Shown here piece by piece: positions 15,205 through 36,499 of a DNA stretch of 64,000 nucleotides. The notes below the pieces were generated by a model that worked only from the letters and a program-made list of their open reading frames with translations, did not search any database and was not told the DNA's origin. Position 1 is the first letter of the stretch, and the number at the start of each line of letters is the position of its first letter. Position numbers and translations under genes: made by a program. Origin of the DNA: Bacteroidota bacterium (GTDB lineage Bacteria; Bacteroidota; Bacteroidia; Chitinophagales; Chitinophagaceae). The stretch lies in assembly GCA_018268015.1 (NCBI GenBank), contig JAFDXJ010000050.1, positions 62,001 to 126,000 on the forward strand, read 5' to 3'.

Positions 15205-15236
15205 CAAAAATAATTGCATGGCTATAACTATCCAAA
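15205..15236 (-). promoter_or_regulatory. Bacteroidota-type promoter of tRNA-Gln
   Basis: On the minus strand TTTG (15236-15233), a 20-base spacer and TATTTTTG (15212-15205) fit the TTTG-N19/20-TAnnTTTG consensus, 28 bases upstream of the tRNA 5' end. Confidence 0.8.
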
Positions 15237-15284
15237 TGAAATGCAGAAAATATTTTCTGCATTTCATTAAATGGGCATAAAGAT

Positions 15285-21319: not shown

Positions 21320-23285
21320 TCAAAAATTAATCTTTTTTATAATAGCAGATTTGAAATATTCTTGTAAAGTTTCATTTTCACATGTATCGTTTCCCTTACA
21401 TCCATCATTAAAAGCAGCCGTTGCACAAGAGCCGCCACTAAACCTGAAATCTTCACAACTAATGAATTTACTCGTACCCTGCAAACTATTCATAGTTGCA
21501 TTCATAATCGCCTGAAAGAAAAAGGCGGCCCTTGATGCAAGATATTCATTCACCTGATCAGTGGATAAATTCCCTGCTACACCAAAATCCGAAAAGCAAA
21601 TTCCATTAACTTCCGTTGATAAACCATGCCCCATATTACAATCTATATACATTAAAGTGGGAATACTATTCGCTTTTAAAATATTATAAATATCATTGGA
21701 GCATTGTATCTGATAATCAGGATCAGGATCCTGATTATCATTATACAATGTTAATGGTGAATTAATTAAACAGGTTGTTTCACTTGTATAAATAGAATCT
21801 ACAAGATTACTATTTGGATAATATCTGCTTTGTGATTGTTTTCGAATCGGAAAGACCGGATCCAGTTTTCCTTGGAATCCAATAAAAGGAATATCCAATT
21901 GGATTGTTCCATCTTGTGTCAAAAACTGGTACTCGCGATTTGCAACGCTAACACTCTGCGGGAAAGCAAATCCTCCCCACATACTCCAGAAACCTTTGAT
22001 ACAAGAACGATAATCTATAGAAGTGTCGCCATAATAAAAATCTGCGTTTATCCGGCCTAAAGCGCTGTCTATGGGTATCTCCCCGGGCGGTACTGGAAAT
22101 TTTGAATCAATCATTTCCTGCTTTGGATAATAAACAGCCGTTCCCATAGCTAAAGCGCCTGCACTTTGCCCAGCAACAAAAATCCAATTAGTATCTATTT
22201 GGTAGGGAAAATGGTTATACGCAATTCTTAACTGTCTTTTTATGATACTGCGCAATGCACTGCGTATATCCTGGCTGGCACGATAGGCAGCGGCTTGCTG
22301 TTGCACACTGACACGCTTTGAATAAATATCTTTAAGCCTTCCTCTTCGGTACTCCACACAGAAAACTACAAAACCTTTTCTGGCCAAAACCCGGCATAAT
22401 GAATCTTCATACGTTAAAGTGCTGCAATCGGAAAAACCACCTGCATGTGCTAAAACAATAGCGGGAAATTTACAGTTTTCATAATTAATGCCACTGATAT
22501 AATAAGCAAAATAGTATAATGAAGTGGGGTCTTCCAGGCATTTATCAATATTATTACAGCCACTTTTTTCTTCATAATCGTCCCACCCAGCTGTTGTTTT
22601 ATCTTCTTTATACTCTACGTCATGAAAATCCGGGATGGGCGTAACATTTTTTGCATAAGAGACCGTATCGGATTTTATAACCCGGTTGGCAGCGAAAATA
22701 TAACCCCGCATATCAAAATGGCAATTGGCTGCGGTACTGTCGCAATCATTTTCCAATCTCTGTGGAATAGCAAAGGCTCGTTGTAATTCCAGGTATTTCA
22801 TTAAAGCACAATTATTAAAATATTTGCCATAACTTAATTGAATCATTTGTTCTTTTTCTCTAATCTTAGTATTGAATGCCCAAAGTAGGAACTTTAAAGT
22901 ATATTCATAATAAGTATGATAGGCGATTCGGGAATTAGAGGGGTTGAAACCTCCCTGAAAACCATTTGATTTTTCAAAAATAAATGGCATTGATCTTTTG
23001 GTGGGTGCAAAATCTTCACATAATTTTTATGGCATGTTTTGTTCATCTTTCATGGGAGGCGTTAAATATTCATGCGTCACATAGGTTAAATTTAATGATA
23101 TGCCAAGTGAGACCATTTCAGCTGATAACAATGCCAGGCTTTGATCTAAAGAATCGGCATAAGAATTACCCCCCCCCGGAAATGCCCGTCAGTAAAGCAT
23201 TTGCAGCGGTTGAGTCATTTTGCTTATTGTTTAAATAAGTAATAGAAGTGAGGAGGAGGAATGATACGGTAAAGATTTTTTTCAT
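21320..23285 (-). pseudogene. Secreted alpha/beta-hydrolase-like protein, broken by a G9 tract and an in-frame stop
   Basis: The downstream frame (21320-22990, up to 556 codons) has an alpha/beta hydrolase core: the oxyanion-type AIVLAHAGGFSDC, VVFCVEYRRGR, the nucleophile elbow GQSAGALAMG, and a late MYIDCNMGHG that may supply the histidine. It resembles carboxylesterases and is cysteine-rich. By itself it lacks an export signal. Upstream, an ATG at 23285 starts a good signal peptide (MKKIFTVSFLLLTSITY) but this frame stops after a run of nine G (23169-23177 on the plus strand as C). Removing one G joins it to 46 further plausible codons, then a TAA at 23027-23029, then KLCEDFAPTKRS and the hydrolase frame. 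So two lesions separate signal and enzyme. Translation from an internal ATG would give a cytoplasmic product. Confidence 0.75.
23169..23177 (-). repeat. Homopolymer G9 tract inside the hydrolase signal-peptide region
   Basis: Nine consecutive C on the plus strand (G on the coding strand) located exactly where the signal-peptide frame and the following coding frame part. Eight G restores the frame for 46 more codons; nine or ten do not. Confidence 0.85.
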
Positions 23286-31473: not shown

Positions 31474-31905
31474 TTATCCCATTAAATAGGCTATACCTTC
31501 TTCTACCGTTTCACAGAGATCACAAACTTTATTATTGCGACATATATCTTTGAATTGATCCCTTATCACTTTATAGGAGTGGTGCATAGGGCAGGGGTGC
31601 GTAGAAGAACATTTACTTAATCCAAGCCCGCACTCTTCAAAAGTCTGTTTTCCATCAATCGCATAAATAACATTTATGATCGGTTGATTATGTTGTTTTA
31701 ATGTAAGATAGAAACCACCTGTAGGACCTTTTGTACTGTTAATCACAGATTCTTTAACAAGAGATTGCAATATTTTTCCTACAGAATGTTCACTGGCATT
31801 TATATAGGCCGCAATATTTTTGATACCGGCTTTTTCGCCGCTTTTATATTTGATAGCGAGGTAAATAACCGCTTTAATGGCGGTCTTACAGGTTAAACTG
31901 AGCAT
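31474..31905 (-). CDS. Rrf2-family transcriptional regulator with Fe-S cysteine triad (NsrR/IscR-like)
   Basis: 143 residues, normal Rrf2 length. Winged helix about 1-65 with the conserved KGPTGGFYL wing. Cysteines 92, 99 and 105 have the C-X6-C-X5-C spacing close to the cluster ligands of NsrR and IscR; further cysteines at 122, 128 and 131 are extra. It is the last gene of a seven-gene operon for nitrogen-oxide stress and Fe-S repair, so an NO- or Fe-S-sensing repressor of that operon is the natural inference. Its start is directly at the stop of the DUF59 gene (no gap). A strong palindrome before the first gene of the operon (36295-36326) is a candidate binding site. Confidence 0.92.
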   Translation of the reverse strand: MLSLTCKTAIKAVIYLAIKYKSGEKAGIKNIAAYINASEHSVGKILQSLVKESVINSTKGPTGGFYLTLKQHNQPIINVIYAIDGKQTFEECGLGLSKCSSTHPCPMHHSYKVIRDQFKDICRNNKVCDLCETVEEGIAYLMG

Positions 31906-32232
31906 TTATCTTTCATTTAAAAATTCTCTGCCTTCGGGTGAAATCATTTGAGCATTCCAGGGTGGATTAAAAGAAAGCTCAAGCGCAATATGATAGTTTG
32001 GAAATGTACTGTGTAAAACTTCTTCTGCGGCTTGAGTAATGGAATCGCCCATAGGACAAAACTGGGTGGTAAGTGTCATGGTGCAAAAGATCTTTTTTTC
32101 TTGATCGTCAAAATCAACCTGATAGATAAGCCCCAGATCCACTACGTTTAAGCCAATTTCGGGATCTATCACTTCCAACAAGGCATTCAGCGCCTGCTGG
32201 CATTGTTCCGTATTATTTGTAACCACATTCAT
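31906..32232 (-). CDS. DUF59 / MIP18-family metal-sulfur cluster assembly factor
   Basis: 108 residues, the size of stand-alone DUF59 proteins (SufT/PaaD-like). Visible core: LLEVIDPEIGLNVVDLGLIYQ, then FCTMTLTTQFCPMGDSI with the conserved Thr and Cys, and SFNPPWNAQMI ending the domain. These proteins help mature Fe-S proteins. The start overlaps the stop of the membrane-protein gene by four bases (ATGA type), indicating translational coupling; the next gene is an Fe-S-type regulator and the operon starts with an Fe-S repair protein. Confidence 0.9.
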   Translation of the reverse strand: MNVVTNNTEQCQQALNALLEVIDPEIGLNVVDLGLIYQVDFDDQEKKIFCTMTLTTQFCPMGDSITQAAEEVLHSTFPNYHIALELSFNPPWNAQMISPEGREFLNER

Positions 32233-33521
32233 TCCTTTGTTGGTTTATGCGTGAGCAATTTAAAAACATTCAAATTGTATAAAATGGATGTAACCAATAA
32301 AAAAACAGCCCCGGTTTGTAATATAAAATATTGGTTCATGAATACGCCCAATAGAAAAATAATAAATCCCAATATATAAAAAATGGCCATCCATTTAAAC
32401 AAAGTAATATTAAACAGATCTTTGGGATTGGGTGTTTTTTGTTTTCCTGCCAGATGATGATACACTTTATTCCATACAATAAATGGCAGTGTTTTAAAAG
32501 TCATTCCTAAAATAATCGCAGTTATCCATCCAAAGAATATGATAAATCCATAGCTGATGATTAAAGCGATGTTTTCAGTGGATTGAGATAATAAGAGAAT
32601 GATAATGATGCATAAAAAAAGGAGGGGCAATAACATCATGATAACTGAAAGCAGAGAGACTTTCATGGGTTCATCTACTTTTTTCCTGATTCTTTCTTTA
32701 TAAGCATGATAACAAAAATTGGCAAATAATAGAATGGCCATGACTATCAATGCATAGGTTAATAGATACAGCCAGGATATTTGAAGATATATGAAATCCG
32801 CAATGAAAATAATTAACCCCGCATTGATACATACATAGATCCACCACAATTTTTTTGTATGATGATATTTTGAAATCAAAAACATGGGGATTAATCTTGA
32901 ACCCACACCCATGACCAACAATAAAAACCAACCCACAATACCGATATGAGCGTGCATCGGTAAATAGGTTATTGAATTTTCTGAAAGGAATGGCTTTGTG
33001 AAATTATACACCAGTAAAAGCCCTATAATGGTCGTAGCGAGTAACCAGAGCGTTGCAGTCAATACAAAAAATGCATGTACATTTTCATGTTTGCTTTTGG
33101 CCATGCTTATAGCCAGGTTAATACAATAAACGATGATGGCGCTTACAATAAAATGCGCTCCCCATTGAGCCGGCCAACCCATATTAAATACTAAAAATCC
33201 ATATATAAGTAATGGGATGCCGATTGCTGCGAAAATAAAGGAACACCAGGCGAGGAAATTGCTGTATAATTTATTTTCAATCATTACGGGAACCAGTTGA
33301 TGGCTAGCCCCAAGTATTATCATTGTGCCCCAGCCAAGCGCCATTGTGTGGGTAATGGCGAGCGTATTAGGCTGGAAATAATTTGTAGTAAAACCCGGAA
33401 TGGATATCACTAATAAAATGCAGGCCACAAAAAAGGAAAGGGCTGCATAAATATAAAAGGGTATTACAACCTTATAGGATGTAGTACTTGATAATCCCAT
33501 ATTTCCAGGTCCGGTAACCAT
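32229..33521 (-). CDS. Heme-copper oxidase subunit I / NnrS-like 12-helix membrane protein
   Basis: 430 residues with about 12 membrane helices. Histidines occur at the places where heme-copper-oxidase-type and NnrS proteins keep heme ligands: ITHTMALGWGTM with GASHQLVPVM in the second and third helix, and MHAHIGIVGWFLLLVMGVGSRLIP in the middle; the clear Cu-B Tyr-His helix of respiratory oxidases is not evident. It is thus related to, but not, a classic oxidase or NO reductase. Its operon (RIC, hemerythrin, DUF2249, DUF59, Rrf2) and the nearby nirK point to nitric-oxide handling. Start codon lies one base after the stop of the DUF2249 gene. Confidence 0.8.
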   Translation of the reverse strand: MVTGPGNMGLSSTTSYKVVIPFYIYAALSFFVACILLVISIPGFTTNYFQPNTLAITHTMALGWGTMIILGASHQLVPVMIENKLYSNFLAWCSFIFAAIGIPLLIYGFLVFNMGWPAQWGAHFIVSAIIVYCINLAISMAKSKHENVHAFFVLTATLWLLATTIIGLLLVYNFTKPFLSENSITYLPMHAHIGIVGWFLLLVMGVGSRLIPMFLISKYHHTKKLWWIYVCINAGLIIFIADFIYLQISWLYLLTYALIVMAILLFANFCYHAYKERIRKKVDEPMKVSLLSVIMMLLPLLFLCIIIILLLSQSTENIALIISYGFIIFFGWITAIILGMTFKTLPFIVWNKVYHHLAGKQKTPNPKDLFNITLFKWMAIFYILGFIIFLLGVFMNQYFILQTGAVFLLVTSILYNLNVFKLLTHKPTKE

Positions 33522-33522
33522 A

Positions 33523-34329
33523 TTATTTTTTATAAATCAATAGATGCACACTGCCTTCATTTATTTCTTTAATACGGAAATGAAAGCCTCTATCTTCTAA
33601 TTCGGGCAGGAGGAAAACCGGTATCCGCTTATGATAAACAAATAATGCTTTATCATCCGGCAGGCTTTCCAGGGCATCCAGAATGGTATGCATAGGCAGC
33701 GGCATAGGTAATTCCGTTACATCAATAACTGCTAAATTTTCTTTATAGGCATTCACTATTTCATCCCAGCCTTCAGACCAGTTTTCTTTCCGGGGCCCAT
33801 CAAATAATTGATGATCTTTTTTAAAAAAATAGGTGTGAAATACTTGTGGATCCGTATTTTTTACAAAAGATTCATATCCCTGTTTTTCAAGAAGATGAAT
33901 CAGTGGAGTCGGTTCAAAACTATTTATGATATTGAGTACATGCCCATTTGGCAATTCTTTCATTGCTTTCATAATAATCTTTAGCGGGTCATTGCCGGAT
34001 TCTATGTCTGCACGAACATCCAGGTTATGTATTTTATCTTTTTCAATCTGCTGAAGGAATGCCGGTTCCTCTTTTTGCGGTAATTTTTTTTCCTCCTGAA
34101 TGGATTGATCGATTTCGAAACCCAACGGCTGCAGTACATTAAAAAAATCTTTGACTGCACACCCGCCAATCCTGGAAGCCATTGTAATACTCGACCTGCC
34201 GGCAATCACTTTACGTAAAATGGGATTGCGTAGTTTTTCAAACTTTGGAGAAAGAGATACAATGGCATCCAATGCTTTTGGATTATGCTTGAGAATAGCA
34301 CCAATCTTTGTATTGACATTGATGATCAT
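33523..34329 (-). CDS. DUF1858-DUF2249-DUF2249 protein
   Basis: 268 residues in three parts. About 1-75 is DUF1858-like (NVNTKIGAILKHNP, with GGCAVKDFFN). About 95-180 is a DUF2249 domain (NLDVRADIESGNDPLKIIM, LNIINSFEPTPLIHLLEKQGY). About 200-268 is a second DUF2249 copy (AVIDVTELPMPLPMHTIL, FVYHKRIPVFLLPELEDRG), lacking the usual arginine of the first. DUF2249 is found with hemerythrins and nitrogen-oxide genes; its biochemical role is unknown. Two bases separate it from the lipoprotein gene before it, one base from the membrane-protein gene after it. Confidence 0.88.
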   Translation of the reverse strand: MIINVNTKIGAILKHNPKALDAIVSLSPKFEKLRNPILRKVIAGRSSITMASRIGGCAVKDFFNVLQPLGFEIDQSIQEEKKLPQKEEPAFLQQIEKDKIHNLDVRADIESGNDPLKIIMKAMKELPNGHVLNIINSFEPTPLIHLLEKQGYESFVKNTDPQVFHTYFFKKDHQLFDGPRKENWSEGWDEIVNAYKENLAVIDVTELPMPLPMHTILDALESLPDDKALFVYHKRIPVFLLPELEDRGFHFRIKEINEGSVHLLIYKK

Positions 34330-34331
34330 GA

Positions 34332-34787
34332 TTATTCAAAATAAGTGTGATAAGCTTTCAATTGAGTATCTAAATCGTTTACATTTTTCCGGGCTGTAGA
34401 GCTGTCTTTGATATTTTTCAAATCATTGGAAAGTCGCATCACCGGAGTGAGCCATTGATGAAGCGCCTCGTGGTCGGGCCCGGTCATTTTACATTCCTGT
34501 AATAATTTTTGCAGCATATTATTCATATCATTTCCTAAAACCTGGTATTCAGATGGTGTAGGCGCTGTAATTGTTTTGAAATGATCAGCTATATTTTGTA
34601 GATCTGTTATTCGTTGATTGGTTGCTGTATCGGCTTTCCATTTCATGCCATTATTGAGATTGAGCGCCTGTGTCTCTTCATGCGAGGTACTATCCTGATG
34701 CATTTCGCTGTGATCTTGATGATTACAGGCAAGGAGCATACTGCAACTTATAAAAAGGCAAATGAATCGTTTCATGATCATGTTCAT
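34332..34787 (-). CDS. Small lipoprotein with His/Asp/Glu-rich N-terminus
   Basis: 151 residues with a lipobox (SMLLAC, Cys at about residue 21, depending on which of two ATG codons is used) and a mature N-terminus rich in metal-type residues (NHQDHSEMHQDSTSHEE). The rest is helical (LGNDMNNMLQKLLQECKM, LHQWLTPVMRLSNDLKNI). I do not recognise a family. It lies between hemerythrin and the DUF2249 gene in the NO-stress operon; metal binding in the periplasm is a guess from composition. Confidence 0.8.
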   Translation of the reverse strand: MNMIMKRFICLFISCSMLLACNHQDHSEMHQDSTSHEETQALNLNNGMKWKADTATNQRITDLQNIADHFKTITAPTPSEYQVLGNDMNNMLQKLLQECKMTGPDHEALHQWLTPVMRLSNDLKNIKDSSTARKNVNDLDTQLKAYHTYFE

Positions 34788-34799
34788 TTTTTTAAATAC

Positions 34800-35297
34800 T
34801 CAAACATCATTCAGTGATTTCTTTTCCCAAAAACAATCTTTCCACAATTGGTCTAATTCTTTACTGTTAACAGGCATGCGCGATGAAATTTTTTCAAGTT
34901 CTTCTGCCGCAATTTTTTCCTGGAGATAATTCAGCAATACTCTTTCTTCAAATCGAATATGGGATTCCAATTTACTGGCAAAATGATTCAAAAGTGATTT
35001 GATTTCTTTTGATTGTTTAATAGCTGTAATGATTTGATGGAGCTCTTGATGTTCTGTGATGGCCCGTTTTATCAATGGATCATCATCAGGCATTTGGGAA
35101 AACAAAAGTGTTTCTTCATCCCTGATATGTTTTGCAATATCTTCTTCAAAAATATACAACACATAATTCTTGATTCTTGCTATTTCAACACCATTTTTCA
35201 GACCATTTCTAATTTTCCAGCAGAGCAATAATCCAAAATGATGCTCCTTAGAAAATGAGACAATGGCCTGATGGCGTTTTTGGGGTTTGGGGTTCAT
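34800..35297 (-). CDS. Hemerythrin-domain protein
   Basis: 165 residues, a four-helix hemerythrin-like protein. Candidate di-iron ligands: SKEHHFGLLL near the N-terminus, AKHIRDEETLL, TEHQELHQII, and SHIRFEERVLL. This arrangement binds O2 or NO at a di-iron centre or acts in Fe-S repair. Its start codon shares one base with the stop of the ric gene (TAATG), so the two are translationally coupled. Confidence 0.9.
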   Translation of the reverse strand: MNPKPQKRHQAIVSFSKEHHFGLLLCWKIRNGLKNGVEIARIKNYVLYIFEEDIAKHIRDEETLLFSQMPDDDPLIKRAITEHQELHQIITAIKQSKEIKSLLNHFASKLESHIRFEERVLLNYLQEKIAAEELEKISSRMPVNSKELDQLWKDCFWEKKSLNDV

Positions 35298-36259
35298 TAA
35301 TTTTTTAAAGTTTTTTCTTTCGATAGCGCTTTGGGAAAAAGAATGTTATTTTCCAGGTGAACATGTATATGGAGATCTTTTTCGAATTCATCCAAATTTT
35401 TGAATAAAAAAGCATAACTGGCACAGCCATCAGCCGGCACTTCATAATTGTTGCTGAGCTCACGGATTTCTTCCATTTTACGACCTACAATTTCATGTTC
35501 ATGTTGCATCATATCAATGGGGGATTCTACACTTTTAAATGCATTATGTTGAAGAGATCCCGTTTTATTTTCATTATGATCTAATTGTTTAATGAAAGGA
35601 AATAAAATATTTTCTTCTTTAATTAAATGTGGTGCCATTTCTTCACAAACATCTTTTACCAATTCATTGATCTGCAATAATTCGGGATGATGCTTACCAT
35701 GTACACGAGCCACTTTATCTGCATAAGCTTCCAGGTCAGGAAGTATTCTTTTCACATAACTGTGATGTGTATTAACAATATAATCAGCAAGAAAACTCAT
35801 ACTCCAGTCATTATAGGGTAAAGGCCTCATATCACTTACAGATTGATTTGCCTGCTGTAATTCTTTTTCTACTTTTGTTACATCCAGACCTTTTTCTGCA
35901 CAGGCTTCTTTAACTGTTTTCTTCCCTCCGCAACAGAAATCAAGTCCGTACTTTTTGAACACTTCTGCTTTGCGCAGATCTTTGGCTGCAATTTCACCCA
36001 GCGTTTCATCCTTTTCACCGGTGATCTTTTTGGAAATTTTCACTTCCCATACTTCCGGGCCTTCCGCTAAGTATTCCCAACTAAAAATATTTCCACGCTC
36101 TCCCAAAAGCTGGTAGTACAATGGCTTTGGATCATGGTCATTGTGAATGGTCAAGCTTTCTCCTTCAGGGAGCTCGTCAAATCGGGCAAAAATGGTTGGG
36201 TGCTTTTGTCGAGGTTCAAGGACTGTTACATCCAGGAAATTCTCCGTACTTGTTTGCAT
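35297..36259 (-). CDS. ric: Iron-sulfur cluster repair di-iron protein (RIC/ScdA/YtfE type) with N-terminal DUF2249 domain
   Basis: 320 residues from the ATG at 36259. Three parts: DUF2249 about 1-80 (TVLEPRQKHPTIFARFDEL, PLYYQLLGERGNIFSWEY), ScdA_N about 90-150 with the conserved FKKYGLDFCCGGKKTVKEAC, and a hemerythrin domain with NTHHSYVKRILPDL, HGKHHPEL, MAPHLIKEENILFPF, MQHEHEIVG and HVHLENNILFP. RIC proteins repair NO- or peroxide-damaged Fe-S clusters using their di-iron centre. Standard RIC lacks the DUF2249 front part. It is the first gene of a seven-gene operon and has a -7 box TACCTTTG (36294-36287) 28 bases ahead and a palindrome directly behind that. Confidence 0.95.
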   Translation of the reverse strand: MQTSTENFLDVTVLEPRQKHPTIFARFDELPEGESLTIHNDHDPKPLYYQLLGERGNIFSWEYLAEGPEVWEVKISKKITGEKDETLGEIAAKDLRKAEVFKKYGLDFCCGGKKTVKEACAEKGLDVTKVEKELQQANQSVSDMRPLPYNDWSMSFLADYIVNTHHSYVKRILPDLEAYADKVARVHGKHHPELLQINELVKDVCEEMAPHLIKEENILFPFIKQLDHNENKTGSLQHNAFKSVESPIDMMQHEHEIVGRKMEEIRELSNNYEVPADGCASYAFLFKNLDEFEKDLHIHVHLENNILFPKALSKEKTLKN

Positions 36260-36286: not shown

Positions 36287-36294
36287 CAAAGGTA
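36287..36294 (-). promoter_or_regulatory. -7 promoter element of the ric operon
   Basis: TACCTTTG on the minus strand, identical to the rpmB -7 box, lies 28 bases before the ric start. No good -33 TTG is found 19-20 bases upstream; that place is occupied by the palindrome, which suggests a regulated promoter. Confidence 0.65.
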
Positions 36295-36326
36295 AATAAT
36301 AAAAGTAAATAAATACTTTTATTATT
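36295..36326 (-). promoter_or_regulatory. Perfect 13-bp inverted repeat, candidate operator of the ric operon
   Basis: Left arm AATAATAAAAGTA (36295-36307), spacer AATAAA, right arm TACTTTTATTATT (36314-36326) are perfectly complementary. The repeat starts on the base next to the -7 box and covers the whole -7/-33 spacer, the usual place of a repressor site. The Rrf2 regulator encoded at the end of the operon is the natural candidate to bind it. Confidence 0.7.
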
Positions 36327-36462
36327 TCATAATTTTTTTAAAAATCAAAATTGAACGTGTTTACGCGTCTTTAGGATTTGAGTAGAAGGGGAGATATATT
36401 CCACAGATCAATTGGGTAAAAATAAGTAACAAAAAAATAGAGGATAAAGTTGAGTATATAAG

Positions 36463-36499
36463 AAAAAAGTAAAAAAGACGAAGGCTTTTTTACTTTTTT
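36463..36499. terminator. Perfect 15-bp hairpin between nirK-thioesterase unit and ric operon
   Basis: AAAAAAGTAAAAAAG and CTTTTTTACTTTTTT pair fully around a seven-base loop, 16 bases past the thioesterase stop. The T-rich arm makes it a likely terminator of the nirK-thioesterase transcript. Confidence 0.75.

Follow-up and report, generated by a model that had tools for sequence, protein, structure and literature searches.

NsrR, an NO-sensing Rrf2-family regulator, represses ric in several proteobacteria (PMC9268430), and the NsrR motifs on record come from proteobacteria, Bacillus, and Streptomyces. The NsrR operator, gATGyAT-N5-ATrCATc, is odd (N5, 23 bp), and the Streptomyces protein has Asp8 as the fourth ligand of its cluster. 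Two further relatives bear on the comparison made here. One is IscR, and the other is RsrR of Streptomyces venezuelae, a [2Fe-2S] Rrf2 regulator that is the best PDB match, by sequence and by Foldseek, of the protein that we discuss below.

The window, by which we mean the whole 64-kb stretch that was analyzed, holds an operon on the minus strand whose first gene is ric (35297-36259). Its product, an iron-sulphur cluster repair di-iron protein with DUF2249, ScdA_N, and hemerythrin parts, scores 242 bits against TIGR03652, above the cut-off. The genes that follow, spaced by zero or just a few bases and all on the same strand, encode a hemerythrin HHE domain protein (34800-35297), a small predicted lipoprotein without a family (34332-34787), a DUF1858/DUF2249 protein (33523-34329), a membrane protein with a weak likeness to haem-copper oxidase subunit I (32229-33521), a MIP18/SufT-like Fe-S assembly protein (31906-32232), and an Rrf2-family regulator (31474-31905), which we propose as the protein that binds the palindrome. 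That the operon encodes its own Rrf2 regulator was already stated in a first-pass annotation of this DNA, and the gene is confirmed as the last of the operon. The membrane protein scores 25.5 bits against COX1, under the cut-off, and has no NCBIfam name; it is conserved in the operon and may be a haem-copper protein that acts on NO or O2. In many relatives, the full-length ric is preceded by an additional short gene that matches just the N-terminal DUF2249 part of ric (L062, L064, L067, L068, L069, L074, L075, L077, L078, L085, and others); the window has full-length ric alone. To the 5' side of the operon lie a thioesterase gene and the copper nitrite reductase gene nirK (436 bits), ended by the hairpin terminator of the thioesterase gene (36463-36499, minus strand, 15-bp arms), which sits between that gene and the ric promoter.

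The regulator scores 71.7 bits against PF02082 (cut-off 30) and matches the Rrf2 superfamily profile. Its AlphaFold2 model (pLDDT 89, pTM 0.84) has the winged-helix fold of the family with the recognition helix at residues 39-51, and the best PDB folds for the model are RsrR, CymR, NsrR, and IscR (Foldseek). Residues C92, C99, C105, and H108 are invariant in 96 of 96 sequences (64 of class A, to which the regulator belongs, and 32 of class B, described below), which supports the prediction of an Fe-S cluster. The likeness to NsrR extends to the Rrf2 fold (Foldseek hits 7b0c and 5n07), the three Cys of the cluster region, a small regulon, predicted control of ric/ytfE, an invariant Lys near G-6, and a G-(T/y)-A triplet in each half-site at a nearly equal distance from the dyad. 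The protein may function like NsrR, but we do not file it as NsrR because it fails the NsrR equivalog model (PRK11014, 23.8 bits vs a cut-off of 182), is without the Asp8 ligand, and has an operator that differs from the NsrR motif. Class A proteins have no Asp at positions 5-10, residue 7 being mostly Lys and residue 8 mostly Thr or Ala, so the cluster and the signal may differ as well (redox or iron status rather than NO). The operator core, TAAAAGTA-N6-TACTTTTA, is even (N6, 22 bp) rather than odd, with an A-tract, AAAA, where the NsrR operator has gAT.

The ligand spacing C-X6-C-X5-C-X2-H is close to that of IscR, and closer to it than to that of NsrR. The position of the recognition helix and the MIP18/SufT-like gene in the operon are further points in common with IscR, whereas the score against the IscR equivalog model is low (TIGR02010, 43 bits vs 207.55), the target is the ric operon rather than isc/suf, and residue 43 is Gly or Ala where IscR has Glu. 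RsrR differs in sequence (∼20% identity), in its operator, and in its target.

The palindrome and the ric promoter

The proposed operator is a perfect inverted repeat at 36294-36327, with 14-bp arms (36294-36307 and 36314-36327) around an N6 center. It had been described in the first-pass annotation as a perfect 13-bp palindrome. AATAATAAAAGTA-AATAAA-TACTTTTATTATT is indeed an exact inverted repeat at 36295-36326, and it is the single match in the 64-kb window with up to three mismatches allowed, but the outer pair A36294/T36327 is also complementary, which brings the arms to 14 bp. The same annotation held such a repeat unlikely to be accidental, and this judgment stands: when the 181-bp spacer (without the terminator) was dinucleotide-shuffled 3000 times, a 13-bp arm arose twice and a 14-bp arm never, which gives a chance probability of ∼1e-3 or less for this spacer alone, and the repeat is conserved across relatives. 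Length by itself is not decisive because perfect inverted repeats of similar size also occur elsewhere in the window, at 15235-15268, at 21711-21740, and in the terminator at 36463-36499; we judge the palindrome real because its core (36300-36321) is conserved before orthologous operons. The repeat at 15235-15268, a perfect 34-bp palindrome with 17-bp arms and no spacer, lies just beyond the stop of a minus-strand secreted-protein gene and is probably part of a terminator, and the repeat at 21711-21740, with 14-bp arms, lies within the coding sequence 21320-22990.

The −7 promoter element is CAAAGGTA at 36287-36294, which reads TACCTTTG on the minus strand; the consensus is TAnnTTTG, with the box taken as −12 to −5 (PMC6847099). 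It begins 5 bp past the operator core, and base 36294 is common to the palindrome and to the first T of the box. The operator occupies the place of the −33 spacer, as the first-pass annotation had it, so that this place carries operator sequence and not TTTG. The abutment of palindrome and −7 box, also claimed there, is true of this genome but is a minority state found in a few lineages, because core and box are 12-17 bp apart (mode 15) in most relatives. Short distances of 4-7 bp occur in the window (5), L071 and L073 (5), L158 (4), and L107 (7), and in L061 and L090 the distance is 22 and 23 bp, with a second overlapping core 8 bp closer. Such overlapping second cores, shifted by 8 bp so that the half-sites can be read in two registers, are seen at L061:6994-7023, L090:6460-6489, L081:7346-7375, and L073:4840-4869. 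A perfect TAnnTTTG stands no more than 45 bp downstream at 50 of 65 scanned sites, which include a few background ones, against 3.5% expected. The operator dyad lies near −28.5 in the window and near −38.5 usually, a difference of one helical turn, and the start codon lies about as far from the −7 box in this genome as in relatives, so the change in spacing lies between the operator and the −7 box.

The palindrome is likely, in our view, to serve as operator for the Rrf2 Fe-S protein that the operon itself encodes, in a self-contained, autoregulated, NsrR-like repressor circuit. Binding of the Rrf2 protein to the palindrome is a prediction, strongly supported by the comparison of sequences; we assign this protein as the binder because the core is kept before orthologous operons wherever the regulator occurs and because a sister regulator uses a version altered at two bases per half. 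The holo (Fe-S loaded) dimer would put one recognition helix into each AAAAGTA half-site, with its wings entering the flanking A-tracts, and would thereby cover the part of the promoter that precedes the −7 box and block RNA polymerase. NO or another cluster-damaging agent would destroy the cluster, and the protein would leave the DNA, allowing expression of RIC, the hemerythrin, the haem-copper-like membrane protein, the Fe-S assembly protein, and Rrf2 itself; with rrf2 inside its own operon, this would amount to negative feedback. The role of NO as the signal is suggested by the ric/hemerythrin gene content and by the control of ric by NsrR elsewhere (PMC9268430), and that of Rrf2 as a repressor by what is known of the family. 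Several observations count against the repressor circuit. The shift by a whole turn suggests a dependence on helix face for which simple occlusion has no need, a dyad near −38.5 in most relatives could also fit an activator, and the missing Asp8 equivalent noted above may mean another signal than NO.

The main rival is that the same Rrf2 protein is an IscR-like activator, whose apo, damaged, or other state recruits RNA polymerase to a promoter with a poor −33 element, which we regard as possible though improbable. In its favor, most relatives have the dyad near −38.5, ∼26 bp ahead of the −7 box, the spacing is either tight (12-17 bp, mode 15) or one turn shorter (4-7 bp) with the helical phase kept, and operator sequence replaces TTTG at the −33 place; the IscR-like ligand spacing points the same way. 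However, a dyad near −28.5, as seen in the window and in L071/L073, L158, and L107, falls within the core promoter, which is unusual for a class II activator, and the class B operator described below sits on the promoter of its own rrf2, as autorepression predicts. The −33 element is in any case weak in Bacteroidota (PMC6847099), so its absence here needs no activator.

Conservation of the core and its co-occurrence with the regulator

Operon, operator, and regulator clade occur as a set, with the operator placed on the promoter and changing in concert with the recognition helix. Rrf2 relatives were drawn from 84,980 species genomes and 149 genomes of the family, with hosts in Chitinophagaceae, Saprospiraceae, Cyclobacteriaceae, Crocinitomicaceae, and Sphingobacteriaceae, and the conservation counts cover orthologous ric operons with upstream DNA present. 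The orthologue of Ferruginibacter paludis (L051) is 70% identical to the window protein. The first-pass annotation had named a motif search upstream of such operons as a check. That search found the core before the first operon gene at 35 of 36 class A loci with no more than one mismatch and at all 36 with no more than two, whereas scrambled palindromes, as a control for the same loci, gave 0.05 per locus; loss of the palindrome from close relatives was looked for and did not occur. The core also precedes operons that have shrunk to ric-rrf2 (L060 and L089). Its half-site columns carry ∼2 bits and are nearly invariant, while the flanks drift, mostly at 0.1-0.5 bit.

A search of the family by DNA pattern only finds the exact core in 11 of 149 genomes, all 11 before a ric operon. 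These fall among the 19 genomes that have the Rrf2 clade (11/19 vs 0/130 without it; Fisher p = 5e-12), and with one mismatch allowed the core is present in 19 of the 19. A search of 395 genomes of the phylum finds the exact core in eight, four of which have the regulator. The cores in the four without it (G213, G262, G462, and G477) were rejected as real operators, given that they adjoin unrelated genes and that their number is at the level of the reversed control. One genome separates the pair physically: in G009, the operon on contig C8 (L153) retains the class A operator and has lost rrf2, and the sole class A-type Rrf2 found in the genome is on contig C15 (L034). Operator and regulator are thus unlinked and yet both kept, which tells a functional pair apart from co-inheritance of neighbors.

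The ric operon is the single evident target of the regulator in this genome. The core at up to three mismatches gave 98 sites in the genome as against 201 for the reversed control, so there is no excess and a wider regulon was rejected; this fits a one-target regulator, but it offers no second target as a functional check. Extra one-mismatch sites in the 19 relatives were likewise not above control, except for two near second class A rrf2 copies. Control of the neighboring nirK by the same operator was also rejected, as no core match lies upstream of it within three mismatches. In a relative (G142), a nirK homologue (L154:2358-3565) is the first gene behind a class A operator, an arrangement that would put nitrite reduction to NO under the same switch.

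A sister clade with an altered operator

Class A Rrf2 proteins form one clade (support 100/95), and a second group, class B, comprises Rrf2 proteins at 38-47% identity. Class B proteins, found for example in Chitinophaga, Elizabethkingia, and Chryseobacterium, share the class A ligands, wing, and operator frame and the same distance from operator to −7 box. Their operator, in contrast, is TAAAAGA-N8-TCTTTTA, placed ∼60 bp before their own rrf2 (L092-L125; e.g., L093:9936-9959), and rrf2 stands at the front of its own transcription unit, unlike in the window, where it is the last operon gene. The class B motif beats the class A motif at 33 of 33 class B loci and the reverse holds at 36 of 36 class A loci, so that operator class and Rrf2 class are concordant at 69 of 69. 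Class B-like sites are also present before ric in Elizabethkingia and Soonwooa (L111:11459, L116:14692, L121:14688, and L124:13982).

The two operators differ at bases ±4 and ±5 (TA in class A, AN in class B), and the G at ±6 is unchanged. The proteins differ at residues 38, 41, 42, and 43, in the recognition helix (39-51) and its cap, where the sequence is (S/N)EHTVGK in class A and PEHFIAK in class B, with residue 41 changed from T to F; K44, L46, Q47, and the wing SxKGPTGGF are common to both. DNA complexes of Streptomyces NsrR and of E. coli IscR have been crystallized; in them, the counterparts of residues 40 and 41 contact bases +5 and +4, Lys45 (K44 here) is near G-6, and the minor groove around ±10 holds the wing (PMC9338935). 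The equivalence of residues was taken from the RsrR alignment together with the statement that NsrR His42 is Tyr in RsrR and IscR (PMC9338935), and, since the 23-bp NsrR sites have odd symmetry and the sites here even symmetry, the base positions match only to half a base pair.

A wider reading, which we put forward tentatively, is that Bacteroidota have two insulated Fe-S Rrf2 systems on one frame, AATAAAAG-n10-CTTTTATT, with a small specificity code, whole-turn placement of the operator, and face-dependent regulation. The systems would differ solely by the inner bases ±4 and ±5; the code would be set mainly by helix residue 41 (Thr or Phe), with 38, 42, and 43, and Lys44 would read the invariant G. 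The operator would be movable along the promoter only by whole turns (dyad at −38.5 or −28.5), in which case regulation would be sensitive to the helix face that the operator shares with RNA polymerase.

The agreement of operator and Rrf2 classes at every locus also weighs against the proposal that the palindrome belongs to a different transcription factor (one of the CRP/FNR type, for example), with Rrf2 no more than a neighbor. In its favor, a proposal for dnrN/ric of Bacteroides fragilis, in the same phylum, names HcpR (PMC1274295). We nevertheless consider it very unlikely, given that the exact core is missing from all 130 family genomes without the Rrf2 clade, that G009 keeps operator and regulator though they are unlinked, and that the motif is dissimilar to the CRP/FNR-type motifs compared. 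A role as RNA or DNA structure (terminator, attenuator, or cruciform) is barely credible. The perfect hairpin with 14-bp arms is followed by T-rich DNA on the plus strand, but no plus-strand gene lies ahead of it, the minus-strand gene upstream ends in a terminator of its own, and the palindrome is upstream of the −7 box and hence outside the ric transcript. It is moreover the base sequence of the half-sites that is conserved: compensatory changes that keep pairing and alter half-site bases were not seen in the nearly invariant core, and the palindrome has no match in Rfam. We rejected the terminator reading on position and conservation. Chance in AT-rich DNA can be dismissed with similar assurance despite the several other perfect inverted repeats of similar length in the window, since the core is conserved at the same place in tens of genomes from several families.

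A proposed operator for the ric regulator in Bacteroidota

Conservation, co-occurrence with the clade, and the altered operator of the sister regulator all agree with the suggestion of the first-pass annotation that the palindrome may define the operator motif of this Rrf2 subgroup. Bacteroidota hold denitrification genes, such as the neighboring nirK, yet neither a published Bacteroidota Rrf2 operator for NO-response genes nor this motif was found in the literature searched, which did not reach subscription papers or RegPrecise. What is gained is a precise 22-bp motif, a named regulator, and a predicted regulon of one operon in this genome. Within the sister pair, each half-site differs at two base pairs and the helix at a few residues, which opens the DNA specificity of the Rrf2 family to direct testing by swaps. 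The operator and its regulator may also yield a promoter part that responds to NO or Fe-S, in a phylum where such tools are few.
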